Counted from the first letter of the stretch, positions 10,536 through 25,158 are shown. The stretch: 64,000 nt of DNA from Halobellus salinus (GCF_014646875.1 NZ_BMOC01000002.1:62001-126000); one strand, 5' to 3'. The notes: a model not told the origin generated them from the sequence alone. A program made the numbers and translations.

Positions 10536-11171
10536 ATGGACGCCGGCCAGGACACCCTCGCGAACCCGTTCGGGATGGACGCGGAGTGCCGGAACTGCGA
10601 GGCGCTGTGTGACGTTCGCACGAACGTCGTCCACGGCTACGGTGACGTGGGCGCGGAGTTCTGTTTCGTGGCCGAACGACCCCACTCCGGCGCGGACCGG
10701 ACGGGCGTGCCGTTCACCGGCGACGACGCGGGGCGCCGGCTCCAGCGGATCCTCGGCGAGTTGGGCTTCGCACGATCGGATCCCGACGCCGCGGAGCCCG
10801 ACCTCCAAAACGCGTTCGTGACGTACCTCACCAGGTGTCGCCACTCCGACCGCCGGCCGACCGACGCGGAGGTCCGGACGTGCGAGCCGTATCTGAACGC
10901 GGAGCTCCGGATGATCAACCCCGAAATCATCGTCCCGATCGGCCAGCGCACGCTGGATGCGCTGGCGACCGACTACACCACCAACCGCCCCGGGGACATC
11001 GATGTCGAAGCGGCACACGCGACCACCGTCCGCGGACGCGGCTTCGAGTTGGTTCCGATGGTCGCCCTCGAAGCCCAGACCGACGCCCAGACGGACGCGT
11101 TCGTCGACCACCTGCTGGACAACGTGTTCTCGCGGGACTACCGCCAGACGAAGGGTCGCCGCGAACGGTAG
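10536..11171 (+). CDS. Family 4 (Fe-S) uracil-DNA glycosylase
   Basis: DNA repair glycosylase that removes uracil from DNA. 211 residues, typical of family 4 enzymes. The family Fe-S ligands are visible as CRNC (C18, C21) plus a second pair spaced C-x14-C in the segment starting RCRHSDRRP. The active-site region AERPHSGADRTGVPFTGDDAG corresponds to the GEAPG...GxPFVG block, with the usual GE-P start changed to AERP. The ATG at 10536 follows a TATA-like box by about 28 nt, so the longer upstream reading is rejected. Confidence 0.88.
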   Translation: MDAGQDTLANPFGMDAECRNCEALCDVRTNVVHGYGDVGAEFCFVAERPHSGADRTGVPFTGDDAGRRLQRILGELGFARSDPDAAEPDLQNAFVTYLTRCRHSDRRPTDAEVRTCEPYLNAELRMINPEIIVPIGQRTLDALATDYTTNRPGDIDVEAAHATTVRGRGFELVPMVALEAQTDAQTDAFVDHLLDNVFSRDYRQTKGRRER

Positions 11172-11204
11172 GGTGCGGACGGTCGGGTGGTGCGATCCGC
11201 ACCC
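11171..11204. other. Perfect 9-bp hairpin after the glycosylase gene
   Basis: GGGTGCGGA (11171-11179) and TCCGCACCC (11196-11204) form a perfect stem with a 16-nt loop that begins at the stop codon of the glycosylase gene. There is no T-run, so a classical terminator is unlikely. It could stabilise or process the 3' end. Confidence 0.4.
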
Positions 11205-11253
11205 GACACCCCGAAGCGCCGGCTTCAAGACCGCCGGTCGTCGATTGCGGATT

Positions 11254-12018
11254 ATGACAGTCGTCGCCGTCCTCGCCGACCCACCGCGTCCCGGACTCCT
11301 ACTGCCTCGGCTCGCTACCACCAGTCCACTGTCGGAGGCGGAGGCGGCGTCGCTGGCGGCGGCGATGCTCAAAGACACGTTGCGCGCGGTCGAAGCGTCG
11401 GGAGGAGATCTGCTCGTCAACTACCGTCCCGACGACCTGCTCCCGGACCGCCACGTCCGTCCTGACGAGTCCGCGGAGGCGGCGGTTCGCTCGCTTGCGG
11501 ACGACGCGCTCGACGACCCCGAGGCCGCGCGGTTCGAGGTTCAGGTCGGCTCGACGCGCTCGGCGCGCGCCGGCAACACGGTGACGCACCTTCTCGAAAC
11601 GGAGGGGGTGCAGTCCGCGGCTGTCGTCCGCGGCGACACCCCGCTGCTCAGGCGATCGACAATCGACTCGGCGGCGATGAACCTCCGGACCAACGAGGTC
11701 GTCCTCGGACCGTCGACTGACGGTCGGGTCTACTACGCCGGGTTCACCGCCCCGATCGACTTCGAGGGGGCGTTCGTCGAGCCCACGCTCGAGACGCTCG
11801 TCGACGGTGCCAACGACGCCGGTCACGACACGGAGTTCCTGGCTATGTTCCCGACGATCCGGACCGGGGCAGACCTCGCGACGTTGGTGTCGTCGGTCCG
11901 CGCTCGGTGGCAGGCCGGGCGGGTGGTTCCCGAACACACCGCGACGTTCGTTGTCGAGCACGGACTGACAGTCGCCAACGACGACGAGGACGGAACGCCG
12001 ACGCTCGTTCGGGACTGA
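11254..12018 (+). CDS. DUF2064-like glycosyltransferase-fold protein
   Basis: 254 residues. It begins MTVVAVLADPPRPG with a nucleotidyl/glycosyl-transferase-like first strand. The middle LETEGVQSAAVVRGDTPLLR resembles the D-x-P-x-L stretch of DUF2064 proteins, and later NEVVLGPSTDGRVYYAGF fits the same fold. Function is not known; the family is grouped with GT-A glycosyltransferases. The ATG at 11254 comes shortly after the hairpin that ends the preceding gene. Confidence 0.7.
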   Translation: MTVVAVLADPPRPGLLLPRLATTSPLSEAEAASLAAAMLKDTLRAVEASGGDLLVNYRPDDLLPDRHVRPDESAEAAVRSLADDALDDPEAARFEVQVGSTRSARAGNTVTHLLETEGVQSAAVVRGDTPLLRRSTIDSAAMNLRTNEVVLGPSTDGRVYYAGFTAPIDFEGAFVEPTLETLVDGANDAGHDTEFLAMFPTIRTGADLATLVSSVRARWQAGRVVPEHTATFVVEHGLTVANDDEDGTPTLVRD

Positions 12019-12059
12019 CCGGGGTCGGAAGCGAGTGGCACCGCTTCCCGACGTTGGAG

Positions 12060-12437
12060 TCGGGCTGTTCCGCCGGTGTCACCCGATCGTACTCGTGGGG
12101 CGATGAAGACTCATCGAGAATACTGGTGGTTCCAGCCACCAGATGAATCCGACAACAGTACACGCACAAATGCTGTAAGTGCCTTTGTGCGTGGACAACT
12201 GGCGGCTGAGTCGGTGTTTGCCACGGTCGTTGGCCGAAATACAAAGAAAGCCGACCGCGCCGGTAGTCGGTAAACAATCAGGCAACTCGAAGCCGTTTAG
12301 CGGGTAGGAGTAACGGCTTCGTGGCAAAGCCACTGGTTGACTGTCCAGCAAACCTGAGACTCCCAATCGTCGGGATTGACCTGCCCGGCCAACACCGGGT
12401 GGGAGGCCCGCGCCGTTAGCCGCGGGAGGATGTCACA
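12060..12437 (+). mobile_element. Relic of an IS200/IS605 (IS1341-type) element with right end
   Basis: The last bases, GCCGCGGGAGGATGTCAC, match the right-end pattern I know from haloarchaeal TnpB elements. Upstream are stacked hairpins typical of the omega-RNA/right-end region: a perfect 10-bp stem CGAAGCCGTT/AACGGCTTCG (12288-12321), GTGGC/GCCAC (12321-12333), CCCGG/CCGGG and CCCGCG/CGCGGG (about 12405-12427). Further left are CTGGTGG/CCACCAG (12123-12142) and CACGCACAAA/TTTGTGCGTG (12161-12193). No tnpA or tnpB frame remains, so this is a decayed or non-autonomous copy. The left boundary is a guess. Confidence 0.55.
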
Positions 12438-12466
12438 TCTCGGAGGTCGCAACGGGCTGACGACAC

Positions 12467-12695
12467 GTGGCGTCAAGTCTCCTCCCGAGTGTCGTGTTCT
12501 CTCTCGCAATCGGGGTGTTGCTGGGGACGGAAGCGCTCGGGGATCGTCACAGTCGAAACGTCCGGCGACGGCCTCGAGACGGTCGTCGGCCTGAGCGTGG
12601 CGATCATCGCCTTTGGCGGCGTGTTCGCCCTCCGGATCGAGCGGATCCGCGAGGCGTCGACGGCGTCGGGTGCGATGCAGACCAAAGGCTTGTAA
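12467..12695 (+). pseudogene. Frameshifted small two-helix membrane protein
   Basis: Two adjacent frames each encode one hydrophobic helix. From the GTG at 12467 the product starts VASSLLPSVVFSLAIGVLLG and then turns into Arg-rich nonsense. In the frame ending at 12695, VGLSVAIIAFGGVFALRIER follows and ends with a normal TAA. Joining them by a one-base shift near 12540 gives a plausible protein of about 75 residues with two membrane segments. It sits between the IS relic and the att site, where decay is expected. A sequencing error is the alternative. Confidence 0.4.
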
Positions 12696-12718
12696 CCGCG
12701 GGGTGAAAACAGGCGCTT

Positions 12719-12779
12719 GCGGTGGGATGGCAGAGCGGCCTATTGCGCCGGTCTTGAGAGCAGGTGGCCTTTGGCCTCC
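12719..12779 (+). other. attL: orphan 5' half of tRNA-Ser(UGA)
   Basis: 61 nt that match positions 1-61 of the intact tRNA-Ser at 24671 with three mismatches (positions 21, 32 and 34), then stop matching in the variable arm. Positions 12753-12779 are an exact 27-bp copy of 24705-24731, starting in the anticodon loop (CTTGAGA). Two of the mismatches break the anticodon stem, so the fragment is non-functional. It marks the left end of the integrated element. Confidence 0.9.
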
Positions 12780-12847
12780 GCATTACCCCGTCAGTTCACC
12801 CGGTAGACGGCTTCTACCAGATGCTCAGTTGACTGAGTGTTATAAAA

Positions 12848-13165
12848 CTATAGGTCTGTTGTGTTAGGACTAATCGTTCCTATCTTGACCCTTCGGGGGG
12901 GCTTCTTGCTACGTGCAAATGATGGGTCGCCTTTCGTGACGCCCCTGTATATGCCGCTGAAGCGGGCCTGTGCTCCTACGGTCAGCCCGTATGCGTAGAC
13001 TTCGTTTTCTCGTCCGAGAGAGCCGCATAGAGCGATTCCTTTCTCTGCCGGGTCGCTTTCCTTACGAAGCACGATCCTTACGAACAGAACGGTCGCTACG
13101 CCGTCTGCTGGTTTCGGGGATATGAGGGAACAGTTCTTGGAAAATTTTCCATAGACTGATACCAT
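12848..13165 (-). CDS. Hypothetical protein (doubtful)
   Basis: Open frame of about 105 codons on the minus strand from an ATG at 13165 (MVSVYGKFSKN) to a stop at 12848. The product is basic and contains GIALCGSLGRENEVYAYGL. It is not recognised. In favour: no other frame explains this 330-bp stretch next to attL. Against: the protein is basic in an organism with acidic proteins, no convincing promoter is seen, and the frame also runs antisense through the small acidic gene to its right, where it is surely not used. A TATA-like TTATAAAAC on the plus strand at 12840 is unassigned. Confidence 0.3.
   Translation of the reverse strand: MVSVYGKFSKNCSLISPKPADGVATVLFVRIVLRKESDPAEKGIALCGSLGRENEVYAYGLTVGAQARFSGIYRGVTKGDPSFARSKKPPRRVKIGTISPNTTDL
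13138..13151. promoter_or_regulatory. Perfect 14-bp palindrome
   Basis: TGGAAAATTTTCCA is a perfect palindrome 64 bp upstream of the small acidic gene. The 12-bp core recurs at 20781-20792 inside the ParB-methyltransferase gene of the same element. It could be an operator or a recognition site; no regulator is identified. Confidence 0.3.
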
Positions 13166-13214
13166 CGCTTCGTCCGGCACAGGAGGTATCAGTACGCCGT
13201 TCCAACAGTTGTGT

Positions 13215-13349
13215 ATGGTTGACCGTCCCGACGAGGACGCGAGTGCCGCTGAGATAGCGCGGTGGATGGAGGAAGACTTCGGTGAAGCCCTCGCGGAGGG
13301 GATCGAGCAGGCCACCGAAGAGGACGAAAACGACGAACAGGGCAAGTAA
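13215..13349 (+). CDS. Small acidic hypothetical protein (44 residues)
   Basis: ATG at 13215 to TAA at 13347-13349. The product begins MVDRPDEDASAAEIARW and ends EEDENDEQGK. It is strongly acidic with an amphipathic helix in the middle, unlike random frames and typical of haloarchaeal cytoplasmic proteins. It lies upstream of the PD-(D/E)xK gene on the same strand, 168 bp away. Function unknown; in this position a small regulator or antitoxin-like partner is possible but unproven. Confidence 0.5.
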   Translation: MVDRPDEDASAAEIARWMEEDFGEALAEGIEQATEEDENDEQGK

Positions 13350-13517
13350 GACGGCACGACGCGCTACGTCCTGTATGGAGTCGTCTGGATCCGCCTCCTC
13401 CCGACTCGAACCCCACACCAGAACCCGACAAAACCGATAGGCAGAACGCCTCAAACCGTTCTGAACTCCTCTTTATAGGTGGATTGAAGTAGAGGCCGAC
13501 ACTCACGGTCTGACATA

Positions 13518-14714
13518 ATGGATGGTGAGGCGGTCAGGAACTACGTTGAGCAGTCTCAGACGCTGTTGGAGGCCTCACCGCAGATGGACGAGGAGAACAC
13601 GAAGGTCAAACTTATTCAGCCGTTTGTGGACCTTCTCGGATGGAACTTCTACTCGACCGAAGTTCAACTTGAATACACCGTCCAGATGGGGACGCAGTCT
13701 TCGAAGGTCGATTACGCTCTGATGGTCGGTGATACACCAGTAGTGTTTATCGAGGCAAAGCCCGCACGGTCGGATCTCACCGAGAAAAACGTTCGACAAC
13801 TTCAGAGCTATATGCGACAGGAGTTGTCCGTCGACTGGGGCGTCCTAACGAACGGAAAAGAGTTCGAGATTCTCAGCGTCACCGGGGACGACAAACAAGA
13901 CGGGGAAACCTCGATTGCTACTTTCGACTTGGACGAAATGGCTCACAACCCCGATATTCCGGAGATACTGACGAAAGATGCTATTCAGTCGGGGAGAGCC
14001 GACGATATAGCACGGCAACTCACACAAACGAACCGGGCTATCCACCGACTGAGTGACCAAGAAGAATCGATTGCCGGACGAATTTCCGACGTGTTACAGG
14101 ACGAACTGGGTGAGACACCACTTGATTTCGAAGAACAGAGCCTCGACTTCGTCCACGGCCTTCGACACGCCCTCCGTGAACGACGTGAGTTCATAGGAGA
14201 ATCGACTGACGGCGAGGACGACACATCAGGTGACAACGTATCTGACGATGACCCCGATACGGAAGAAGTCGAGATTGAACCCGTCGAGAACAACGTCGCC
14301 GGGACGATACGTCGTACCGACATAGAAGGTGACGAGGAAGCACAAGTAGCCGTGTTCCCGACCCGTGAGTCCGGCCTTCCATTCCTGTTCGAGAACAACG
14401 CTTGGGGATTCGTTCGTATCGGACGAGATTTCGACTATGTGGCGATGTACGTCACGCAGAACGCTCGTGAAGTGCGTTACTTTGCTAAAGTCCGGGATAC
14501 CGTTGTGCCAGAGGATGCTAACCTCATTCGTGAACCAACCGAGTACGTCGATAGAGCCGAACTTGCTGATAACAAGATGGTAGTCAGGTTCGAAGCCGAC
14601 AGCCTCTATCAACTCGAAGATCCGATCCCATACGAGACTAAATACCCCCAAAGCCACCGATATACGACGCTTGGGGAGTTCAGAACAGCCGAAACAACCG
14701 ATAGTATACTTTGA
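13518..14714 (+). CDS. HsdR-N-type PD-(D/E)xK nuclease protein
   Basis: 398 residues with an N-terminal domain like the N-terminus of type I restriction subunit R. The PD-(D/E)xK core is visible as VDYALMVGD (D65) and VVFIEAKPA (E79-x-K81), followed by QLQSYM and WGVLTNGKEFEIL, typical of HsdR_N. There is no helicase motor. Residues about 230-270 form an acidic linker, and the C-terminal half (about 280-398, with RESGLPFLFENNAWGFV) is an unrecognised domain. A TATA-like TTTATAG lies at about 13471. It is the only rightward gene between attL and the type IIG gene, which converges on it. Possibly a stand-alone restriction nuclease. Confidence 0.8.
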   Translation: MDGEAVRNYVEQSQTLLEASPQMDEENTKVKLIQPFVDLLGWNFYSTEVQLEYTVQMGTQSSKVDYALMVGDTPVVFIEAKPARSDLTEKNVRQLQSYMRQELSVDWGVLTNGKEFEILSVTGDDKQDGETSIATFDLDEMAHNPDIPEILTKDAIQSGRADDIARQLTQTNRAIHRLSDQEESIAGRISDVLQDELGETPLDFEEQSLDFVHGLRHALRERREFIGESTDGEDDTSGDNVSDDDPDTEEVEIEPVENNVAGTIRRTDIEGDEEAQVAVFPTRESGLPFLFENNAWGFVRIGRDFDYVAMYVTQNAREVRYFAKVRDTVVPEDANLIREPTEYVDRAELADNKMVVRFEADSLYQLEDPIPYETKYPQSHRYTTLGEFRTAETTDSIL

Positions 14715-15178
14715 GGGTCGTCTCAGACGTTTGAGAAGATATGGAGGTCACACCGGAGTAGTATCCTCAACGGATTCAGCAACTCGGTCGAAAAACGCCG
14801 GAAACGGGCACAGTTGCAAGTGAGATGGAGAGGTTGTGACGCCCACAAATACTTCTACAGGTCGACGTGACACCACCGACCGGTGTATGAACTCACGCTG
14901 TATCGAGGCCAACAAGACGGTATAAATAGCATAAGAAAGGCTTGGTACTTTCACACCGTCTCTCGAGCACAGTAGTAGCGCGGGTTGCCGGCGGTAGTAA
15001 AGCGGGTCAACGAGGGTATCAGTAGAGCCAGCGAGCCACTCCCGTCATATTCTCCGGGGTGGGGGTTTTCGCTTGATTTCCGACTTCCAGATCTTCGAAG
15101 GGGGCGGTCAAGACAACCAGAGCAGATTTCGTGATTTCCCCCCGTGGGTGTCGATATGCCGATATTGAAATAGCGAAT
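14715..15178. other. Non-coding gap with TATA box and G/C strings
   Basis: 464 bp between two convergent genes with no convincing protein. It holds a strong plus-strand TATA box, GGTATAAATAG, at about 14919, which could start a short RNA of up to 250 nt. In 15050-15150 there are several G or C strings (GGGGTGGGGG, GGGGGCGG, CCCCCCGTGGG) spaced in AT-richer DNA. These recall the G-strings of haloarchaeal origin-recognition boxes, but no full box can be shown. A minus-strand frame of 68 codons (14748-14954) is basic and not convincing. Confidence 0.4.
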
Positions 15179-18106
15179 TCAGTAATCACTTAGCCGGGGG
15201 CTTTCCCGCGCCTCTCCAACCCCTTCAAGTTCGATTACTTCGCGCTCTTGTTCCCTTTCAATAAGAACTTCCGTATCGACACCACCCTCGCTCGCTCGCA
15301 TCTCCAAGAGGTGTTCTGCCGCTTGTTTTAGATCGTCCACTCGACCCTCAGCGTCGATAACAGACAAGACTGCTCTATCTAGTTCGTCTCGTGCCTTTTC
15401 TACTTCTTCGCCGTTGTCGGGGTCATCGGATTTGTCTTCGACTTCCATCAGATTTTCAAACGCAGATACAATCCGCCTTTCCTCTTCGTCGCTAACAGCG
15501 CGGGGGTCAACTATCGACAGTTGCTCTGTTTCATACAAAGCGAGTTCGGAGCGGTTCATCCCCTGTCCGCTAGCCTGCCGTCCCTCTAACTCTCGTGCTA
15601 ACCACACTAAACGTGAGTTCAGGATCCCACAGAGCAATCTCTCGCTAATATCTTCGTCCGCCTCAACGACGTGAAACTGGTAGTCAAAAAAGGCTCTTGC
15701 CTCATTCCATACAGACCTGTGTGCCGTCCACATAAATATCGGTAGTGCCAACTGCTGTCGATATTCATCGATTTCGCTGATGTTGAACCACACATCCCGT
15801 CGCTCGCATCTGTCGTGGTTGTGCCGTCCCTGCTCTTCTCCTTCCTCAATATATTCGAGTAAGGCTTCGTGACCATTCTTTGCCAACCATTCCTTCACGT
15901 GTTCTTCTTCTGTATCCCCGAACTCGTGTCCATCGTTGAGTGCCTCTCTCACTACTTCACGAGTATCGAGTACTGACCATTCACGAGCAGATTGTTCATC
16001 GAACCTAATCTTACTGATCTGCCCACTTGCTTTGATTGCTGGCGTTGTGTATTGGTCTAGTCCAAGTTCCTCCCATTCCTCTGTTCGATGATAGAAATAC
16101 GGATTTCCGCCAACCTTCTTTCCGGTATGAGCATTTGCGACTTCTTGGATCTCACATATATTCTTCCCACGTAGTAACTCGAAGTAAACTGGTGGGGCTT
16201 TGTAGTACATACCCCACTTATTATTCTCACGTAGAGCGGGTTGAGAGGTTACCAACATTCTGTACTCATCGGTTGCGACTATTTTCTCCGACTCAATCTC
16301 AGACTCTATTTCATCCGCAATATCGTCAACGCTGATATTGTCCTGTACTTTGAGGAACTTCACGTAGTTTTCTTCCCGCTCTTTGATGTCGTCACATTTC
16401 TCTACTATAATCACATTCGAACCGACAAGTGCGTCATTAAATGCTTGCGACGCAAACTGAATTACAGCCTCGATCTTGTAGTTGTCGAGTAGGAACTTCT
16501 GGATGTCCTCTCCGTATCTACTACTGAGCCAGCGGTCACTAGCAATAAACCCAAGTTTCCCTCCCTCTTCGAGAAACTGTGCTGAGTGCGTAATGAAATA
16601 GCAGTAGATATCCGCAAAACCAGATAGATACTCAGCGTCGACAGCAGATAGGTGGGAACGGACTTTTTCTTTATCTCCGATACTTTGATACCGGATATAG
16701 GGGGGATTACCTACTACAGCGTCGAACCCACCTACAGCACCGTTTGCGTCTCCGCTCTCCCATTCTGAACCACTCGCGTCTGCAACTACTCGCCCAAACC
16801 GTCTCGTGTCGGGTGCAACATCAAAGAAGTCGCTTACCTCGACGTTGACGTTCTCTGTGTGTTCTGTAAGGTCTTGGAGTGCAAGATTGATTGCCGATAG
16901 GTGCGCCGGGAAGCGGTTGATGTCCACACCCATCAACTGGTCAAGTATCACGTCGTGGTTGCCTTCCTGTTCAGGGAACAACTCTTTCTTGCGGTTGTAT
17001 GCAGAAATGAGAAAGCCGCCAGAACCGCACGCTGGGTCGAGAACAGTATCGTGGGCCTCATCGATTGTAAGTTGGGCTATCAAATCACAGATTGCAGGCG
17101 GTGTATAGTACTCGCCCATCTCCTTTCGACGCTCTGCTGGGATAACGCCCTCATAGATGCGGCCAACAACGTCCGAGTTGAACTGTGTCAGATCTTGTTC
17201 GTCCAACTCGATGATGAAGTCCCGGATCTGCTCAGACACGAGGTTTAGCGGGATTTCAGAGTAGATGTCGTCGTGCTCGAAAACCGCCTCGAAGTCGATC
17301 TCTTCTACGATGTGGTTGAAGTACTCCTCTAAGTCGGCCTGTACCCGGAACGGCGAGACAGCAAGCGGCTGTACCTCATCTGTATAGGTTGGAGAGGACT
17401 CCAAGATTTTGTAGAATAATATCTTATTAGTAAGGAGGTAAGCGGCCTGCTCCGCGAACTCTTCCAGAACGTCTTCTCGGTCACTTTCGTCTGCATCCTC
17501 GTATTCGATCCCCTGAGAGGCAGTCCACGCTTCGAAGTCAGCACGGAACTCATCGTCTTCTTCCAAGTTGTCTGCCAACGATTGGTATAGATCCGGCGTT
17601 ATCCGTTCGTGTAGGGACTTGATTCGTTCGACAAAGGCATCGTCATTAGCATCCCACTTGGCCTCTCCCCCTCGTATGCGGGCGATTTCGTCCAGAAACG
17701 ACCCAGCGAACTTCTCTAGACTGGTGATGTCGTAGGACTTCGTAGACCTCTGAAGGAGTGGCACACCCTCTTCGTATGCGTCGAATACGACGAGTCGGTC
17801 GCCGTTGAAGGTGGCGAAGTAGGGAGCACCGATGTCACCAGCATAGCGGAACGCCTGCCGGATGACCTTCGGAGAATAGGGGTCGATCTCCTTCCGCGAG
17901 CGGTTGCTACCATTCGGTGCCTTTGCTTCGATTACGACCGCTGGACTACCGTCCGCCTCAAACAGAACGAGGTCGGCAAAGCCATCAATATTCTCACCGT
18001 ATTCAGGCTGGATCTTCCCGAAGGTGGTTCCATTACGACGTGGTTCGTCATCGACTTCGTTAGCGAGGTGTCGGTAGAACTCAAAGTGGATACCTGCCTC
18101 ACTCAT
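15179..18106 (-). CDS. Type IIG restriction enzyme / N6-adenine methyltransferase
   Basis: Single-chain restriction-modification protein of 975 residues. The nuclease is N-terminal: GFADLVLFE (D45) and AVVIEAKAP (E60-x-K62). A helical connector follows, then the methyltransferase: GEYYTPPAICDLI near 331, SAM motif I DPACGSGG at 357-364, GVDINRFPAHLSAINLAL, and catalytic NPPY at 467-470. The region after about 640 (AHTGKKVGGNPYFYH and WTAHRSVWNEARAFF...) should be target recognition, with a coiled, acidic C-terminus. All catalytic residues look intact. DNA cleavage and self-protection need no partner gene in this family. The ATG at 18106 has a TATA-like ACTTAATC upstream on the minus strand at about 18135-18142. 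Confidence 0.92.
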   Translation of the reverse strand: MSEAGIHFEFYRHLANEVDDEPRRNGTTFGKIQPEYGENIDGFADLVLFEADGSPAVVIEAKAPNGSNRSRKEIDPYSPKVIRQAFRYAGDIGAPYFATFNGDRLVVFDAYEEGVPLLQRSTKSYDITSLEKFAGSFLDEIARIRGGEAKWDANDDAFVERIKSLHERITPDLYQSLADNLEEDDEFRADFEAWTASQGIEYEDADESDREDVLEEFAEQAAYLLTNKILFYKILESSPTYTDEVQPLAVSPFRVQADLEEYFNHIVEEIDFEAVFEHDDIYSEIPLNLVSEQIRDFIIELDEQDLTQFNSDVVGRIYEGVIPAERRKEMGEYYTPPAICDLIAQLTIDEAHDTVLDPACGSGGFLISAYNRKKELFPEQEGNHDVILDQLMGVDINRFPAHLSAINLALQDLTEHTENVNVEVSDFFDVAPDTRRFGRVVADASGSEWESGDANGAVGGFDAVVGNPPYIRYQSIGDKEKVRSHLSAVDAEYLSGFADIYCYFITHSAQFLEEGGKLGFIASDRWLSSRYGEDIQKFLLDNYKIEAVIQFASQAFNDALVGSNVIIVEKCDDIKEREENYVKFLKVQDNISVDDIADEIESEIESEKIVATDEYRMLVTSQPALRENNKWGMYYKAPPVYFELLRGKNICEIQEVANAHTGKKVGGNPYFYHRTEEWEELGLDQYTTPAIKASGQISKIRFDEQSAREWSVLDTREVVREALNDGHEFGDTEEEHVKEWLAKNGHEALLEYIEEGEEQGRHNHDRCERRDVWFNISEIDEYRQQLALPIFMWTAHRSVWNEARAFFDYQFHVVEADEDISERLLCGILNSRLVWLARELEGRQASGQGMNRSELALYETEQLSIVDPRAVSDEEERRIVSAFENLMEVEDKSDDPDNGEEVEKARDELDRAVLSVIDAEGRVDDLKQAAEHLLEMRASEGGVDTEVLIEREQEREVIELEGVGEARESPRLSDY

Positions 18107-18368
18107 ACATACACCAACGTTTTAGAGGGTATCGATTAAGTAGTTACGCACCGACCGTAGCCAGTCGTACAAGTTCTCGAAACGACTGTTATTGTGCTAT
18201 AGAACTATGCTACTGCCGCTACGAGGGGAGAGCGTTGATTACAGTCCAGCCTCTGCTCAAGAGCAAGCACTCACGAACGATGTTCAAAGGTAGTGTCCGC
18301 CGGATCCCAGCCGGCGAACGACAGGTGGACTCGAAGACGACGACGAGCACCCGAAGGAGGTGTCGTCT
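18107..18368. other. Divergent promoter region
   Basis: 262 bp between the type IIG gene (minus) and the helicase gene (plus). It contains the minus-strand TATA-like element at about 18138 and a GGAGG at 18356-18360 that sets the helicase start. No small gene is recognised. Confidence 0.4.
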
Positions 18369-20243
18369 ATGCCTGACGTAGAGACCGAGCGTAAAATACC
18401 TTCTTCTGTCCGGTTGATGTGGCACGAGACCCACAACCGGCTCGAAAGGTTGCTCAGTCGTGAGAGTCCTGTCGTGCTGAAAGCCGCGCCGGGTACGGGT
18501 AAGACGACGGCCCAGTTCCAAGTTGCCTACAACCACGACCGACAGATAACGGTTCTCGCGGCTCGGCACGATATGTACGACGACGCCAAAGAGAAAGCAC
18601 TCGACGCCGGGTTTGCCGAGGACGAAATCGCTACCTCATCTACTCCACACGAGGACTGTCCGACGTTCAGAGGCGACCACGGTGACGCAACGGCTGAGGA
18701 GTGGCGTTTGCTGTATCGTCTCGGGGTCAGCCCGTGGCTGTTGCACGAACGATTCAACGCTCCCTGTCAACCTGACTGTCCGTATATGGCGAACCGGATC
18801 GAGAATCCAGACCAGTACGACGTGATTATCTGCCACTACGTTAACGCACGGGACACGCAAAAAATCGAAGACCGTCTGGTGTTTATCGATGAGTTCCCCA
18901 GTTCTGCCTTCCTGACCTCATTCGGTACGCACAACGACGACGGGCTGAGTATCAGCGAGGCGCTGGACGGCTACTTCGACGCCACCGACTCCCTGCCGTG
19001 GGACAACTACGGTGACTTCATCTCCAACCTGAACGGTGAACGTAGAAGTCGTATCGCTTTCGATATGGAACAAGACGGACTGGACGTAGACGACAAAACC
19101 CTCGCTGAGTTAGACGAGTCCGACCGATACCACAAGATGGCCCCAGTCGTCGTGTTTGCCCTTCTACTGGCTGAAGATCTCGGAAACGGGTGGCACTACT
19201 GGGAAGCCAACCCGCCCCAGTCTCTTTACGTCAACAGTTTCCGTAAAGGGTGTAGTGGCCCCGAAGGTGTCGTTGTCGTCCGAAAGCAGGCTTCTTCACC
19301 CAAAGACGAAGAGGTACACATTCTCTCTCGTCCCGATCTATCCGCCGCTGACCAGATTATCGGGCTGGATGGAACGGCTCGGAAGCCGTTGTGGGACTCG
19401 ATTTTCCAGCACGAGTTCGAAGTGGAGGAGTACCACACGGGCGAGAAGATGCTTGATTACGTCACCGAGGTTCAGGACATCAAACTCGTCGCAACTGGCG
19501 ACGGAACAAAGCCATACAGTAGTGGGAACCACGTCGCAACGGAAGTTGACCCGACAGTTTCCCTGTGGACACGAGTAAACCACGGTAGGCCAGTTCTCAT
19601 AATCCCAAAAAAGGCTGGTATGCGGTTGAAGCAAACAGAACCAGAGATGTTCGAGAACGACCTCAAGCCCGCTCTTTCCGGCGATTACGAGTTTATGACT
19701 TTTGGGATGTTAGTATCGAACAACGACGCCGCAGGAACAAACGCCCTACACGTCTGTGGTTCAACCCATCCGGGCGACGGAGTTATCAAAAGGTGGGCGG
19801 CGCTGATGGGCGAAGGAGTTGAACGGAAAAAAGGAACCAAAGGAACGGATCTCGTCTACGAGCCTCAACAGATAGGCGACGTTCTACACCGATATTTCGT
19901 TCACGACCAGATCACACAGGCCATCCTCAGAGGACGGAAAAAACACCCAGACGATGATGGGGCTGTAGTGGTCGTGAATACCGAGGCGGTTCCAGAGTGG
20001 TTCGAGCCAGACGAAAGACTCCGTGTAGCGCAGGATTCCCCGTTTAGATCGAAGGACAGGCGTCAGTTCGTTCGATACTTACTCGATAAAGGGACAGCAG
20101 AGACGACCGACTTTGAGAACGAGTTTGACGTTCATAGCACGACGGTTCAAAGAGCGATGAGCGACCTCGAAGAAATCGGGTGGGTAGAACTGACAGACCG
20201 ACCCGGCCCTCACCCCACGCTGTACGAGTGGAAAGGTGAGTAG
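18369..20243 (+). CDS. XPD/DinG-like SF2 helicase with cysteine cluster and C-terminal winged helix
   Basis: 624 residues. Walker A is AAPGTGKTT (42-47 core). The Walker B region is RLVFIDEFPS with D174-E175, in place of the usual DEAH. Between them lie four cysteines, C97, C133, C137 and C155, in the place where XPD/DinG helicases carry a [4Fe-4S] cluster, and DVIICHYVNA matches the segment that precedes their DEAH box. AILRGRKKHPDDDGAVVVVN near the end of the motor resembles helicase motif VI. The last 60 residues (RYLLDKGTAETTDF...TTVQRAMSDLEEIGWV) form a winged helix. The ATG at 18369 is 8 nt after GGAGG. Probably an element replication or defence helicase; the family assignment is from motifs only. 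Confidence 0.65.
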   Translation: MPDVETERKIPSSVRLMWHETHNRLERLLSRESPVVLKAAPGTGKTTAQFQVAYNHDRQITVLAARHDMYDDAKEKALDAGFAEDEIATSSTPHEDCPTFRGDHGDATAEEWRLLYRLGVSPWLLHERFNAPCQPDCPYMANRIENPDQYDVIICHYVNARDTQKIEDRLVFIDEFPSSAFLTSFGTHNDDGLSISEALDGYFDATDSLPWDNYGDFISNLNGERRSRIAFDMEQDGLDVDDKTLAELDESDRYHKMAPVVVFALLLAEDLGNGWHYWEANPPQSLYVNSFRKGCSGPEGVVVVRKQASSPKDEEVHILSRPDLSAADQIIGLDGTARKPLWDSIFQHEFEVEEYHTGEKMLDYVTEVQDIKLVATGDGTKPYSSGNHVATEVDPTVSLWTRVNHGRPVLIIPKKAGMRLKQTEPEMFENDLKPALSGDYEFMTFGMLVSNNDAAGTNALHVCGSTHPGDGVIKRWAALMGEGVERKKGTKGTDLVYEPQQIGDVLHRYFVHDQITQAILRGRKKHPDDDGAVVVVNTEAVPEWFEPDERLRVAQDSPFRSKDRRQFVRYLLDKGTAETTDFENEFDVHSTTVQRAMSDLEEIGWVELTDRPGPHPTLYEWKGE

Positions 20244-20403
20244 ACCGTAGCGTGTGTGAGTGAGTCACAAGCCCTGCACTACGCATACTACTACTCTATA
20301 TGTGCTCTGCAGTCCTTCACAACCGTTACCACACCGAGCCAGCACGCTTAAAGTCGAAGGAGTCGGGGGAACGGATTTCAAGCATCCGAGTGTACCGTGG
20401 GGT

Positions 20404-21996
20404 ATGAGTGAGGACGGGACGGAAGAACTGGATCCAGACGACCTCGAAGACCACCCGAAGGTCGTGGACAGGTATCCGGCGGACGACGACCGAGAACTGG
20501 ACCTCGACGGCGAGCCACGGGACACTCCGAAGGTCACGGATGATAGTGCATACACAGACGCAGACTGGACGATTATCGATGGCCACCGCCGGATCGACGC
20601 ACTATCAGAAGCAGGAGCAGATACAGTTGAGGTCGAGGTCGTTGATACCGGCGACAGCAAGCGGGAAGAAATGGAGGCGATTCTCGAATACAACCAGACC
20701 CGTTGGAAGACGGAGGGGGAGCACGTTATTGATGCCGTCGACTGGATCCGAGTGTGGGAGGACTCCGTCGAGACAGATCTGGAAAATTTTCCGAGCGGCT
20801 ACCGCAACCGACTGGAGAAAAAATTCGACCTCAGTGGGAAGACGATTGAGCACGGCCTCCGGGTATGGTGGGCGGCGAAAGAGGGAGAGTACAAGGGAGA
20901 CAAACTAACCGATGAGGCACAGCAGGCGGCAGTAGAACTGTGGGAAGGGCTGTGCTCGAACGACGAATTGAACGACGGATTGAACGACGAGTCCTTCAAC
21001 AGCGCATACACGACGCTCAAAGACGACCTCTCGAAAGCCGTTCCCGGCACAACGAAACGCGACTACGAGGAGTGGATGGCGGGGGAGTCGATTTTCCCTT
21101 ATATCGGGTCGAAGAAAGACATAGTGGGCTGGTTTCTCTGGGAGGTTCCGGAGTATGGGCGTCTCGATAAGCCAGATCGACACACGCGACTCCCGGAGCA
21201 CTCCCGCTTTGTGGAGGTTTTCGGTGGGACAGCGACCGGTATCTACAATAAGCCGCCAAGCGGGGAGGAAGTCTACAACGACCTGAACGAAGACTATAGC
21301 GACTTCTTCGGGACGTTGCGAGACCACGGAGAGGAAATTAGCCGATTTCTGGAGGGTGTTCGATACACACGCGAACAGTTCGAAGACTGGACTCGGAAGT
21401 GGTATGATGAGAGTTGGCGTCCGAAAGACGACGTGAAACGAGCGGCCGTCTTCTTTTTCAACCGCTTCGCACAAATGCTCGGAAAAGAGCATCGGTTGTC
21501 TGGGTTTGACCGACCGGGTGCAAACCGGCCTGAGTCAAAGGAGTTCTACGAGAAGGTCGAACGGTTAGGAGAGTTCCAGAAACGGTTCAAGCGGGATGAC
21601 CCAGAGTACTTCCAGAAGCGGTTCGATTCCCCTATTGCTCCTCGCTTGGATAGTGAAGTTGAGGTTGAGAACTTGGATTACGAAAAGGTGCTCTCGAAGT
21701 ATGACTCGGAAGATACGCTGTTTTACTTCGATCCCCCATACGTGAATAAAGAGGAGTACTATCACGACGAAATCGACCACGACAGGCTGGTGACGAAAGT
21801 GAGCCAGTTGGAGGGCGACTTCATTCTGTCCTATGGCGAGAACCTCCCCGATGGTCTCGAACAATACCGAATTGAAGAACTGGTACACCCGACAGGGAGC
21901 AACGACAGACTCGAACGGCTCATCCTGAGTTTCCCTGAAGAGAAGGAAGGGACGTTTGAAATCCCGACTACGGCGGGGCCTGCCGACGAGTGGTAG
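20404..21996 (+). CDS. ParB-like domain fused to Dam-type (D12) adenine methyltransferase
   Basis: 530 residues. N-terminal ParB/sulfiredoxin-like part: VVDRYPADDDREL and DWTIIDGHRRIDALSEAGAD (about 20-80), then a helical region with EAILEYNQTRWKTEGE as in ParB proteins (about 90-150). A linker with a near-repeat (NDELNDGLNDESF) follows. C-terminal class alpha N6-adenine methyltransferase: motif X FPYIGSKKDIVGWF at 231-244, motif I FVEVFGGTATG near 269-279, and catalytic DPPY at 443-446. It would methylate adenine in DNA, with the ParB part perhaps guiding binding. The longer upstream frame lacks conservation. An AGTCGAAGGAGT stretch lies about 40 nt before the ATG. No cognate nuclease is adjacent on this strand. 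Confidence 0.85.
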   Translation: MSEDGTEELDPDDLEDHPKVVDRYPADDDRELDLDGEPRDTPKVTDDSAYTDADWTIIDGHRRIDALSEAGADTVEVEVVDTGDSKREEMEAILEYNQTRWKTEGEHVIDAVDWIRVWEDSVETDLENFPSGYRNRLEKKFDLSGKTIEHGLRVWWAAKEGEYKGDKLTDEAQQAAVELWEGLCSNDELNDGLNDESFNSAYTTLKDDLSKAVPGTTKRDYEEWMAGESIFPYIGSKKDIVGWFLWEVPEYGRLDKPDRHTRLPEHSRFVEVFGGTATGIYNKPPSGEEVYNDLNEDYSDFFGTLRDHGEEISRFLEGVRYTREQFEDWTRKWYDESWRPKDDVKRAAVFFFNRFAQMLGKEHRLSGFDRPGANRPESKEFYEKVERLGEFQKRFKRDDPEYFQKRFDSPIAPRLDSEVEVENLDYEKVLSKYDSEDTLFYFDPPYVNKEEYYHDEIDHDRLVTKVSQLEGDFILSYGENLPDGLEQYRIEELVHPTGSNDRLERLILSFPEEKEGTFEIPTTAGPADEW

Positions 21997-22217
21997 TCAG
22001 GACTGGTACTCGAACCGTTCTCCGGTGTCGCCGTACTGTTCGAAGCCGTGCTCCTCGGCAACGTCACGGACGAGGTGGAGGTCGTCGGGATCGAGCAGGT
22101 CGAACGTGACCCGCATACCCTGTTCCGTGCGGTCGGCGTTGATGTTCGCTACGTCGGCTTCTAAATCGGCGAGTCGTGCATAAGGTCGTTCGTACGTACT
22201 CCGAGGTCGTCGGTCAT
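21997..22217 (-). pseudogene. Small acidic protein gene with apparent frameshift
   Basis: From the ATG at 22217 (directly after GGAGGATGCT) the product starts MTDDLGVRTNDL and then stops early. The neighbouring frame carries an acidic, protein-like sequence: ARLADLEADVANINAD, then FDLLDPDDLHLVRDVAEEHG, ending FEYQS at the TGA (21997-21999). That second frame has no start codon before an internal ATG. A one-base shift near codon 12 would give a protein of about 70 residues. The stop abuts the methyltransferase stop on the other strand. Either a recent inactivation or a sequence error. Confidence 0.45.
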
Positions 22218-22424
22218 AGCATCCTCCGGAGCAGGCTCCTCAGTCAAAAGCGAATGGAGGCCATAGAACGCATACTCGAGATACAGAAATAGCGAGCCTG
22301 TCGACCCCGTCAGAGAGCGGCAAGACTGGGTTGAGAGCCAAAGGAGCGTAAGGGTAGGTCGGATGAGCCGAAGTAATCGGCTCCTTCACCGTTCTACAGA
22401 ATTTCACGACGAAAACAACAACTG

Positions 22425-23135
22425 TTAATCAGTCATCTCGTCCTCGCACCGTTGTGCAAAGTCCTTAGCGTTCGACTCAGGAGAGAATACCCCCACACCA
22501 GCTCCATATCCAGTAAAACAGACGCCGTTCGCGGTTCTAACCCATATCCTGTAACTGTCACCCTGCACAGTCATAAAGCCACCACCGCCGATTGAGACGC
22601 TATCTATTCCGGTGTTCTCCGGGCGAGCATCCTCCATAGCAGATTCCGCCTCCGAAACGGAACTGTATACTGTAACATTATATCTCAACGTGGAGTCAGT
22701 CTCAGAATTAAAATAAGTGGCTGTATTCTCTTCTTCGACGCCACCCTGCCAACCCGCCTCAAACGAATCTATCGTTGGGACGAGACCATCAGCAGACTGG
22801 TCGATTAATTCAGCCTCTCCTCCGTCCCCGTTCTGTCCGGTGTTTTGTCCAGTATCCGGGCTAAGCATAACTCCTCCAGCCCCGATTAAAATCACCACTA
22901 TAGCGACCGTTGCCCAACGATTTATCGAAACCCCCTGCGACCGCTTCAGTCGTGTTCTTACGATAGGTAGTGCGATTATCCCCGCTAAGAGAATGAGCAC
23001 CCCAGAAACGACGTTAGTAATTAATGAACCAAGCCCCGACAGAATCAGTAAACCTCCCACCGGATAGGCGATCAGTTTTCCTAAGGTGATGTTTATTCCA
23101 CCGTCCTCCTCCTCTTCAGCACTACTGTTAGACAT
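22425..23135 (-). CDS. Membrane-anchored protein with extracytoplasmic domain
   Basis: 236 residues. An acidic N-terminus (EEEEDGG) is followed by three hydrophobic segments: about 18-35, about 38-56 (TNVVSGVLILLAGIIALPIV) and about 72-91 (WATVAIVVILIGAGGVML). A T/N/G-rich linker leads to a C-terminal soluble domain of about 120 residues (YFNSETDSTLRYNVTVYSS... RIWVRTANGVCF) with two cysteines. A TATA-like TTATAT about 30 nt before the ATG at 23135 supports the start and a leaderless message. Similar small anchored proteins are common in haloarchaeal mobile DNA, but no function is recognised. Confidence 0.65.
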   Translation of the reverse strand: MSNSSAEEEEDGGINITLGKLIAYPVGGLLILSGLGSLITNVVSGVLILLAGIIALPIVRTRLKRSQGVSINRWATVAIVVILIGAGGVMLSPDTGQNTGQNGDGGEAELIDQSADGLVPTIDSFEAGWQGGVEEENTATYFNSETDSTLRYNVTVYSSVSEAESAMEDARPENTGIDSVSIGGGGFMTVQGDSYRIWVRTANGVCFTGYGAGVGVFSPESNAKDFAQRCEDEMTD

Positions 23136-23174
23136 ATGTAAATAAACCAGCGCTTACTAAAATATAAGTTTGGG

Positions 23175-23459
23175 TCAGAACCCAAACCGCCTAGCGCGTT
23201 CGTCTACGAGGTCGACAAGTTCCCGAATAGCACCCCACTTCCTGTCGTCGCGGGCCTCGTAGTCGAGGTCGGGCTCCACGACCGTCGCAACCCACTCTCT
23301 GCCCGTGTAACGGACGTGAATAGCGACCACGTCGTCCTCGGGACTGGCTTCGTCGGATAGGTTAGCGGCTTCCTCAACGCTATCTACGGCCTGTGTGTTT
23401 CCGTCTACGGTGACTCGGAGGTTTTTGACCACGGGCTCACCCCATCCTATCGAGGGCAT
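23175..23459 (-). CDS. Small hypothetical protein co-transcribed with the integrase
   Basis: 94 residues from the ATG at 23459 (MPSIGWGEPVVKNLRV), acidic: VDGNTQAVDSVEEAANLSDE, then YTGREWVATVVEPDLDYE, ending DLVDERARRFGF. It overlaps the 3' end of the integrase by 23 nt, so it is translated from the same transcript. The compact alpha/beta composition could suit a small excisionase-like or accessory protein, but no HTH is evident and the function is unknown. Confidence 0.6.
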   Translation of the reverse strand: MPSIGWGEPVVKNLRVTVDGNTQAVDSVEEAANLSDEASPEDDVVAIHVRYTGREWVATVVEPDLDYEARDDRKWGAIRELVDLVDERARRFGF

Positions 23460-24537
23460 CTCGACGGTCTTCAACCGGTGCTTGGTCGTACTTGGCCGTC
23501 GTCTCGATACTGTGGTGTCGTAGTTGGCTCTGTGCGGCGGCGAGGCCTTCCTCGCGGGCCATATATGTCCCCGTGGAGTGTCGGATCGCATACCACGATA
23601 TGTCTCTGTTAATCTCCGCGAGGTCACAGACAGCGTCGAGGACATACCGTAACGACGAACCGCTATACGGGTTCGAGTGACGCGTCAGCCACAGTCTGTC
23701 GGTGTCGTCGTACTTCTCGTATAGTTCGCGTTCTTCGAGCCACCGAGCCAGATATTCCGCCGTTTCCCGTCGAAGGCTGACCGTCCAATTGTCTTCGTTC
23801 TTCGAGGAGTCGTCCTCGGGAATCCGAAGTGTCGCGTTATCCACGTCAACCCAGTAAGTCCGAGCACGAGACACCTCGATAGGTCGCAGACCTGCGTCGA
23901 GGGCGGTGTGAACCAGACTGGGGTACTTGAAGCCGTTTGCCCGATCCCAGTCTTTTTTCGAGACCTCGGAAACGGGCTTTCCGTATCGTCGCGCCAACAG
24001 GTGTTTCCACTCCGTTCGTTCGTCGGGATCTAAAGCCGAGTAGGCAGGTACGGCTCCGTACTCTAACGCCCCTTCACGGAGTGCTGTTCGCTCCTCGTCC
24101 GAAAGGAAATTACGGGGTTGGGAGACTCCGGAGGATGAAGGGATAGTAATGTCCGGCTCCCACTTGTCGCCCGCGAAACGGAAGTATGTCATCAACGCCA
24201 GTTTGACGTTGTGGAGGTGCGACTGAGAGTACTCGTCGTCGGCCATAACTAACGACCGAAGGTAGTCTTCACCGGCGTCGTGGCTGATGTCGAGGGTGTA
24301 TCCGTACTCCTCCCAGACGTATCTATGAAACTTGTCGATAATGCTGGAGTAGTTCTTTGCGGTGTCGTGCGCGTATCCTTCGAGCGCATCCGGATTCTTC
24401 CCCTGCCGTGCGAGCCACTTTAGAAACTCCCGGCGGTGGCTACCGTATGCGACCAGTTTCCGCTCTGTAAGGAAATCCCGTGACGGCTCGGGAATAAGAA
24501 CGATACCTTCAACTTTGTCGGGTTTCTCCGTACTCAT
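23437..24537 (-). CDS. Tyrosine recombinase / integrase of the element
   Basis: 366 residues. A SAM-like core-binding domain covers about 1-135 and the catalytic domain about 145-366. Active-site residues visible: R218 (GLRPIEVSRAR), R319 in WYAIRHSTG (Tyr in place of the usual first His of HxxR), His341/342 in LRHHS, and nucleophile Y350 (TAKYDQ). The gene is intact and not split by the att site. Its ATG at 24537 is 134 bp from the tRNA-Ser gene. The frame stays open upstream across the tRNA and beyond, but that extension is antisense to DUF5785 and is rejected. It should catalyse integration at the 27-bp core. Confidence 0.93.
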   Translation of the reverse strand: MSTEKPDKVEGIVLIPEPSRDFLTERKLVAYGSHRREFLKWLARQGKNPDALEGYAHDTAKNYSSIIDKFHRYVWEEYGYTLDISHDAGEDYLRSLVMADDEYSQSHLHNVKLALMTYFRFAGDKWEPDITIPSSSGVSQPRNFLSDEERTALREGALEYGAVPAYSALDPDERTEWKHLLARRYGKPVSEVSKKDWDRANGFKYPSLVHTALDAGLRPIEVSRARTYWVDVDNATLRIPEDDSSKNEDNWTVSLRRETAEYLARWLEERELYEKYDDTDRLWLTRHSNPYSGSSLRYVLDAVCDLAEINRDISWYAIRHSTGTYMAREEGLAAAQSQLRHHSIETTAKYDQAPVEDRRDALDRMG

Positions 24538-24670
24538 AGTCCCTGTATGACGGCGATTTCGACGGTTTCGGAACGGTTCAATCGAGGCACGATGGAACGT
24601 GTCAGATTCATACAGTTCACCTGTGAAGCCGTCAAAATCGCGTGACGTAACGGGGACAGTCTGAAACCTC

Positions 24671-24757
24671 GCGGTGGGATGGCAGAGCGGACTATTGCGC
24701 CTGCCTTGAGAGCAGGTGGCCTTTGGCCTCCTGGGTTCGAATCCCAGTCCCACCGCG
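24671..24757 (+). tRNA. tRNA-Ser (UGA anticodon), integration target
   Basis: Class II tRNA of 87 nt. The acceptor GCGGTGG pairs with CCACCGC and the discriminator is G. The anticodon stem CCTGC/GCAGG encloses loop CTTGAGA (anticodon TGA), followed by a long variable arm and T-arm GGTTCGAATCC. The segment 24705-24731 is attR and is repeated exactly at 12753-12779. The 5' half of this copy was brought by the element and restores a functional gene. Confidence 0.96.
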
Positions 24758-24840
24758 TTTTCGGGGTAGACACCGGCGAGAGGACGTCGTAGTGCCGCTC
24801 GATGCGTAACGGCTTTGTCACGGCCGTCCAACACGGACAT

Positions 24841-25158
24841 ATGGATTGGCCACACAACCCCGACGGCGAACGCGGCTCCGAGGGCCGCCGCAAGTACGGC
24901 CACGCGGTGCTCGCGAAGAAGGTCGACGAAGCGGCGGATTTCCCGCTCGCCCGCGAGGAGTACGTCGAGCAGTACGGAGACCACCCGGTTCGCCTCGACG
25001 ACGACCGGGTCGTCTCGGTTGCCGACATCTTCGAACACGTCGACACCGACGAGTTCGAGGATTTCGTGGCGTTCCACCGGGCCGTCGGCCGGGCGATGCG
25101 TGAGCACGGCCACTGGTCCTACGAGGGTGCCGACCAGTTCGCCGACGGCGAAGCGTAG
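24841..25158 (+). CDS. DUF5785 family protein
   Basis: 105 residues, beginning MDWPHNPDGERGSEG and containing GHAVLAKKVDEAADFPL and HGHWSYEGADQF, the pattern of the haloarchaeal DUF5785 family. No enzymatic motif is visible and the function is unknown. It is the first chromosomal gene right of the integrated element. The ATG at 24841 is preferred over an in-frame ATG 39 nt upstream because the conserved part starts at MDWP. Confidence 0.75.
   Translation: MDWPHNPDGERGSEGRRKYGHAVLAKKVDEAADFPLAREEYVEQYGDHPVRLDDDRVVSVADIFEHVDTDEFEDFVAFHRAVGRAMREHGHWSYEGADQFADGEA

Follow-up and report, generated by a model that had tools for sequence, protein, structure and literature searches.

An integrative element in the tRNA-Ser(UGA) gene of Halobellus salinus, with probable strand exchange in the D-arm, and its haloarchaeal relatives

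The locus and the two tRNA copies

The DNA analyzed here is a stretch of 64,000 nucleotides (nt) from Halobellus salinus (GCF_014646875.1, NZ_BMOC01000002.1:62001-126000), referred to as the window. Between two host genes it contains a segment of about 12 kb that begins with a partial copy of tRNA-Ser(UGA) and ends with the intact gene, to which a tyrosine integrase gene stands divergent. Position 1 of the tRNA corresponds to 24673 in the intact gene and to 12721 in the displaced copy, and this numbering is used throughout. The features on which the argument rests are listed first, with attP denoting the attachment site of the element and ORF an open reading frame.

10957-12018, plus strand: left-hand host gene, DUF2064-like; the orthologue lies beside an uninterrupted tRNA-Ser(UGA) in six congeners
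12719-12738, plus strand: left 20-bp exact block, tRNA positions -1 to 18, probable crossover; the invariant part, positions 8-15, is 12728-12735
12721-12779, plus strand: displaced copy of tRNA-Ser(UGA), covering positions 1-59; host as far as about position 8-18, beyond that probably attP of the element
12753-12779, plus strand: 27-bp exact repeat, tRNA positions 33-59, with its copy at 24705-24731; probably attP homology rather than crossover
12780-12870, plus strand: left arm of the element; CTTCTACC (about 12811-12818) and TTATAAAA (12840-12847) conserved in an alignment of 12 elements
23437-24537, minus strand: tyrosine integrase of the HSTV-2-like family, 366 amino acids (aa), intact ORF, PF00589 E = 2.3e-16
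24538-24672, plus strand: right arm of the element, between the divergent integrase and the tRNA; nearly identical in H. clavatus
24671-24690, plus strand: right 20-bp exact block; positions 8-15 are 24680-24687
24673-24756, plus strand: intact tRNA-Ser(UGA) (anticodon TGA); first 8-18 nt or so probably from the element, the remainder host
24802-25158, plus strand: right-hand host gene, DUF5785; beside the tRNA in congeners too

When the host genome (3.07 Mb, 54 contigs) was searched with the tRNA-Ser(UGA) gene, the only matches were the gene itself, which is single-copy, and 12719-12779, a 61-nt partial copy that agrees with it at 95%, with 3 mismatches (E = 9.7e-22). GC content is 0.534 within the segment and 0.671 in the remainder of the window. 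The order left gene, tRNA-Ser(UGA), DUF5785 gene is uninterrupted in six congeners (L034, L035, L036, L037, L040, L042), where a native tRNA promoter motif of the type CCGACAA..CTTAG lies at about -41 to -26. The segment thus has a displaced tRNA fragment and a rebuilt tRNA at its two ends, an uninterrupted counterpart in relatives, and an end-located tyrosine integrase with its candidate catalytic residues, whose start is 135 bp from tRNA position 1. These observations confirm that the part of the window from about 12.72 to 24.69 kb represents an element integrated into the sole tRNA-Ser(UGA) gene.

A preliminary description of this DNA had proposed an integrative element from the doubled 5' part of the tRNA, with its three mismatches, and from the intact integrase near the right copy; it named as checks an empty site in related genomes and the same type of integrase at tRNA-Ser(UGA) elsewhere. 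Repeat, GC content, integrase and empty sites all agree with that proposal, integrases of this type are present at tRNA-Ser(UGA) in other species, and the view that the element supplies the 5' part of the tRNA together with upstream sequence was borne out. It placed the intact gene at 24671-24757, where there is indeed an intact gene, but this included a few flanking bases.

A sister element of 9.9 kb occupies the same tRNA in H. clavatus CGMCC 1.10118 and encodes a 98% identical integrase. The two share 1.59 kb at the right end (93.6%), 0.70 kb at the left end (89.5%) and two short stretches, and their main cargo genes differ; different cargo between conserved ends is what an integration module should show. 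The first 70 bp or so after tRNA position 38 are identical in the two left ends. The variable arm in the displaced copy of H. clavatus is that of the window tRNA, from which the host tRNA of H. clavatus differs at positions 49, 52 and 53. Because it is foreign to its host tRNA, this variable arm must be element DNA, and the idea that the whole left copy is a decayed remnant of host sequence was rejected on that ground.

Both arms of the window element are intact. In the left arms the CTTCTACC and TATAAAA boxes are conserved across the aligned elements and constitute a putative integrase arm site and/or promoter. In the right arm a block at 24633-24655, conserved across elements, lies at the position of the native tRNA promoter (about -42 to -20). 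Judged by sequence and position, it may drive the tRNA; instead, or also, it may bind the integrase.

Outside the element, the interval 12019-12718 separates the left host gene from the displaced tRNA copy and includes about 620 bp that are absent in congeners, whose short gap between left gene and tRNA contains the native promoter. A broken, apparently membrane-protein-like ORF lies within the interval, which is possibly the relic of an earlier 5'-side insertion.

Position of the strand exchange within the tRNA

Haloarchaeal genomes were queried with the integrase, and up to 20 kb was fetched around each relative. Fifteen elements were retrieved (3.2-18.2 kb, GC 0.43-0.58), with the integrase as their sole universal gene and a second tRNA-Ser copy 3-18 kb away in every case; a sixteenth is split over two contigs. 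Positions 8-15 of the tRNA, TGGCAGAG in the D-arm, form the only 8-mer that is identical in all 15 pairs of attachment sites (att). The identical block that includes them spans -1 to 18 in the window and in H. clavatus, only 8 to 15 in Halorubrum persicum (L066), 0 to 18 in L069, 1 to 20 in L070, 1 to 30 in L073, 1 to 34 in L072, and 6 or 7 to 84 in L074 and L075. In L069, L070, L073 and L072 the identity of the pair stops at 18, 20, 30 and 34, respectively, and loss of all resemblance after a perfect first 20-34 nt is unlike a decaying remnant.

Host alleles point the same way. In H. persicum the intact tRNA has G7 against U66, a foreign 5' end, together with the host stem CCGGT/ACCGG; its displaced copy has A7 and the stem CCTGC/GCAGG. 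Among Halorubrum relatives, those with U66 carry A7, and the CCGGT/ACCGG stem is present in nearly all that were sampled, so the exchange in H. persicum fell between positions 8 and 29. In Halobellus tRNAs positions 19 and 38 are linked, as A-G or C-A. Both intact tRNAs carry a natural pair (A-G in the window, C-A in H. clavatus) and the displaced copies do not, as expected if the intact gene is host from position 19 on. In G480 (L098) the right arm of an element ends exactly after tRNA position 15 and is followed by unrelated DNA on a 250-kb contig.

Strand exchange was therefore probably not at the longest repeat; the att pairs, the alleles and the G480 junction fit an exchange at about positions 8-18, in the D-arm. 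The element is then better bounded at 12728-12738 and 24680-24690, and most of the intact tRNA is probably host, with only the first 8-18 nt or so and the upstream arm coming from the element. The preliminary description had taken the stretch from anticodon loop to variable arm as the crossover core and the 27-bp repeat as defining the boundaries to the base. The 27-bp match is real, but it is accompanied by another exact match, 20 bp long (12719-12738 = 24671-24690); the block common to the 15 pairs is 8-15, the H. persicum exchange lies upstream of position 30, and pairs lose identity at various positions, so neither the core nor the exact boundaries are supported. The broken stem that it noted in the left copy is there, but under the D-arm model that anticodon stem would be attP of the element and never had to fold.

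One alternative keeps the same element and places the exchange within the 27 bp from anticodon loop to variable arm, as in SSV1 and pTN3, with the mismatches of the left copy as decay after integration. The 27-bp block is present, the displaced copies of the two Halobellus species differ at 16, 19, 30, 32 and 38 and are identical from position 39, and IntSSV1, the characterized archaeal case, cuts at the anticodon loop (PMC8371274). We consider it distinctly the less probable model, and, after the 15-pair alignment and the host alleles, the 27-bp block was set aside as the crossover: the four relatives with an abrupt end of identity do not show a decay pattern, the H. persicum alleles speak against an anticodon-loop exchange, and the three "mutations" in the window are natural alleles found in other species.

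Several observations nevertheless weigh against a D-arm exchange. In the window itself two exact blocks are present, one of 20 bp and one of 27 bp. The Halobellus displaced copies differ over positions 16-38 and are identical for some 70 bp beyond, which naively favors a later exchange; within each genome, both copies carry the host nucleotide at positions 16 and 38, a hint of gene conversion. Most tRNA-Ser genes share the conserved positions 8-15, so that identity at these sites is partly expected. Finally, L063 has two whole tRNAs, and L074 and L075 have a complete tRNA at the far end.

Our overall explanation, to which we give a probability of about three in four, is that a cargo-carrying element with an HSTV-2-like integrase entered the sole tRNA-Ser(UGA) gene by exchange in the D-arm and rebuilt the tRNA with its own 5' end. 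The integrase would join the circular element to the host gene, and the chromosomal promoter region with the first tRNA nucleotides is displaced 12 kb to the left. On the right, the intact tRNA would be rebuilt from the upstream arm and the first 8-18 nt or so of the element and the remaining 66-76 nt or so of the host. Arms and integrase form the conserved module, between whose parts cargo is exchanged. The case carries a caution, namely that the crossover does not have to coincide with the longest exact repeat.

With regard to G480, the right arm with tRNA positions 1-15 (contig 2, L098 19053-19250) is not located at a tRNA gene. This junction may reflect integration off target, a rearrangement or a truncation; the left end of this off-site copy was not found within 18 kb.

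The integrase and its relatives

The window integrase is 44.7% identical to that of HSTV-2 over 98% of its length, where membership of the HSTV-2-like family is defined by at least 30% identity over 60% of the length to the representative (Badel 2021), and PF00589 (Phage_integrase) is its only domain above cut-off. Candidate catalytic residues R218, K246, R319, H341 and Y350 are invariant in an alignment of 11 integrases. In plasmid and phage collections no integrase exceeded 60% identity to it. Its nearest relatives (98-54% identity), where a tRNA was found, mostly adjoin the 5' end of tRNA-Ser(UGA) in divergent orientation, and the ORF is intact in the window element and in the 14 relatives analyzed.

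In a maximum-likelihood tree the 12 tRNA-Ser(UGA) integrases nearest to the window and that of L098, which has no adjoining intact tRNA, form one clade with support 100/100. The 5' part of the tRNA is duplicated in 11 of the 12 tRNA-Ser(UGA) elements of this clade, and L063 has two complete copies. Outside the clade yet also at tRNA-Ser(UGA) are L073, of the 5' type, and L074 and L075 (block 6 or 7 to 84). Distant integrases, at about 50-55% identity, duplicate the 3' part in the classical way: positions 13-75 of tRNA-Glu(TTC), 30-73 of tRNA-Arg(GCG), 15-75 of tRNA-Met and 24-71 of tRNA-Gly(TCC). At tRNA-Arg(TCG) and tRNA-Gly(CCC), positions 1-52 and 1-44 are duplicated by the elements L084 and L085, whose integrase lies at the opposite end. 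The tRNA-Ser clade thus typically uses the 5' half, although such use also occurs outside it. In L084 and L085 the integrase stands beside the displaced copy, so orientation and carried tRNA half vary separately.

It might be argued that the element is an old, immobile island whose cargo is swapped by homologous recombination between conserved ends and which the integrase no longer moves. Two Halobellus species do share conserved ends around different cargo, and a decayed integrase remnant lies beside tRNA-Ser in L143. The integrase of the window is intact, however, its candidate catalytic residues are invariant, both arms are preserved, and the integrases are distributed patchily over several haloarchaeal families, with congeners that have uninterrupted sites; we regard immobility as unlikely and the element as presumably still mobile.

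Among known systems, pTN3 of Thermococcus nautili integrates at tRNA-Leu with a minimal site of positions 2-44, and its integrase gene is disrupted on integration (Cossu et al. 2017, PMC5495485). As in pTN3-like elements (PMC5495485, PMC8371274), the att site of the window element lies in the 5' half of the tRNA, an intact tRNA is rebuilt and the original promoter is displaced. Unlike the "suicidal" pTN3 integrase, whose gene contains attP and is split, that of the window stays whole as a 366-aa ORF, and the target is tRNA-Ser(UGA), with exchange probably in the D-arm, rather than tRNA-Leu. The integrases of HSTV-2-like haloarchaeal tailed viruses belong to the same family and have PF00589 only, but no virion genes were found among the cargo ORFs searched in the window element, and sister HSTV-2-like integrases, as sampled, mostly duplicate the 3' half, whereas the tRNA-Ser clade duplicates the 5' part.

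According to a review of archaeal tyrosine recombinases from 2021, no integrases in archaea other than the pTN3-like ones use the 5' half of the tRNA, and the D-arm as a sublocation is mentioned in the archaeal review only as a possibility. One integration in the 5' part of a tRNA-Ser is listed by Krupovic et al. 2019 (PMC6563490); CalSub-E1, in Ca. C. subterraneum (PMC6563490), belongs to a different archaeal lineage from the window element. We found no description of a haloarchaeal 5'-half integrase clade in the passages of open literature consulted, so that prior notice is possible. The cargo is ordinary and the att polarity unusual; within that scope, the haloarchaeal clade with an intact integrase that uses the tRNA 5' half is new. 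Across much of the haloarchaea another integrase family, with a whole, non-suicidal gene, uses the tRNA 5' half at a single tRNA, and its 5'-half enzymes and their 3'-half sisters offer natural pairs for studying changes of site position and polarity.

With only one copy of the tRNA gene, the host presumably relies on the element promoter for as long as the element stays integrated. We tentatively suggest, at somewhat less than even odds, that in a D-arm crossover clade every integration gives a single-copy, presumably essential tRNA an element promoter and that, once the native half or promoter has decayed, imprecise loss would be lethal, a toxin-free form of self-retention. The element is a case for asking whether a host can be held through ownership of such a promoter.

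A second, convergent integrase-like gene (about 34-35% identical to that of the window) lies directly behind the first in the tRNA-Glu(CTC) elements L086, L138 and L141.

Cargo and minor observations

The remaining genes of the window element are as follows.

13518-14714, plus strand: 398-aa protein with an HsdR N-terminal domain (PF13588 E = 1.7e-12); 37% identical over 205 aa to an ORF of L100
15179-18106, minus strand: 975-aa Eco57I-like N6 DNA methyltransferase, type IIG-like (PF02384 1.1e-32, PF07669 6.3e-29); PADLOC REase_MTase_IIG match, 4e-39
18360-20243, plus strand: 627-aa protein with a Walker-A-like motif and a C-terminal helix-turn-helix (HTH); relatives in L064, L071 and, weakly, L067
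20260-21996, plus strand: ParB-like/D12-class adenine methyltransferase fusion (PF02086 1e-10), start codon uncertain; PHROG DNA methyltransferase match and weak ParB-like matches
22425-23135, minus strand: 236-aa protein, N-terminal half apparently hydrophobic as judged by eye; no family match above cut-off
23175-23459, minus strand: 94-aa ORF immediately downstream of the integrase, conserved in the H. clavatus element

The cargo of the relatives includes Eco57I-like methylases in L064 and L066, as in the window, type I restriction-modification in L071 with close homologues in L072, GmrSD-like and HNH proteins in L100, and a Prim-Pol protein in L063. The islands of Halorubrum ezzemoulense (PMC11078007) are similar in their low GC, integrase, hypothetical genes and some restriction-modification genes. 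An identity as provirus or integrated plasmid, instead of cargo island, is very improbable and was rejected: tailed haloviruses such as HSTV-2 have integrases of the same family, L063 has Prim-Pol and the 627-aa protein might serve in replication, but domain, PHROG and PADLOC searches of the window element gave no capsid, terminase, conjugation or recognized replication gene, and relatives are as small as 3.2 kb.

The 627-aa protein is a putative ATPase/HTH protein. Its structure model is unusable (pLDDT 43), and in a profile search against the PDB only a C-terminal winged helix was matched. Proteins of about 600 aa with a Walker-A-like motif and a C-terminal winged helix recur in three or four elements and match no named family over most of their length.

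Short copies of the 3' end of tRNA-Ser(UGA), covering about positions 60-84, lie roughly 75-250 bp downstream of the intact gene at L067 19489-19778, L083 2815-2837, L085 11936-11958, L143 51-174 and in 23 Halorubrum genomes. Sometimes two or three follow at similar spacing, such copies also occur at tRNA-Gly, and they look like scars of 3'-end integrations.

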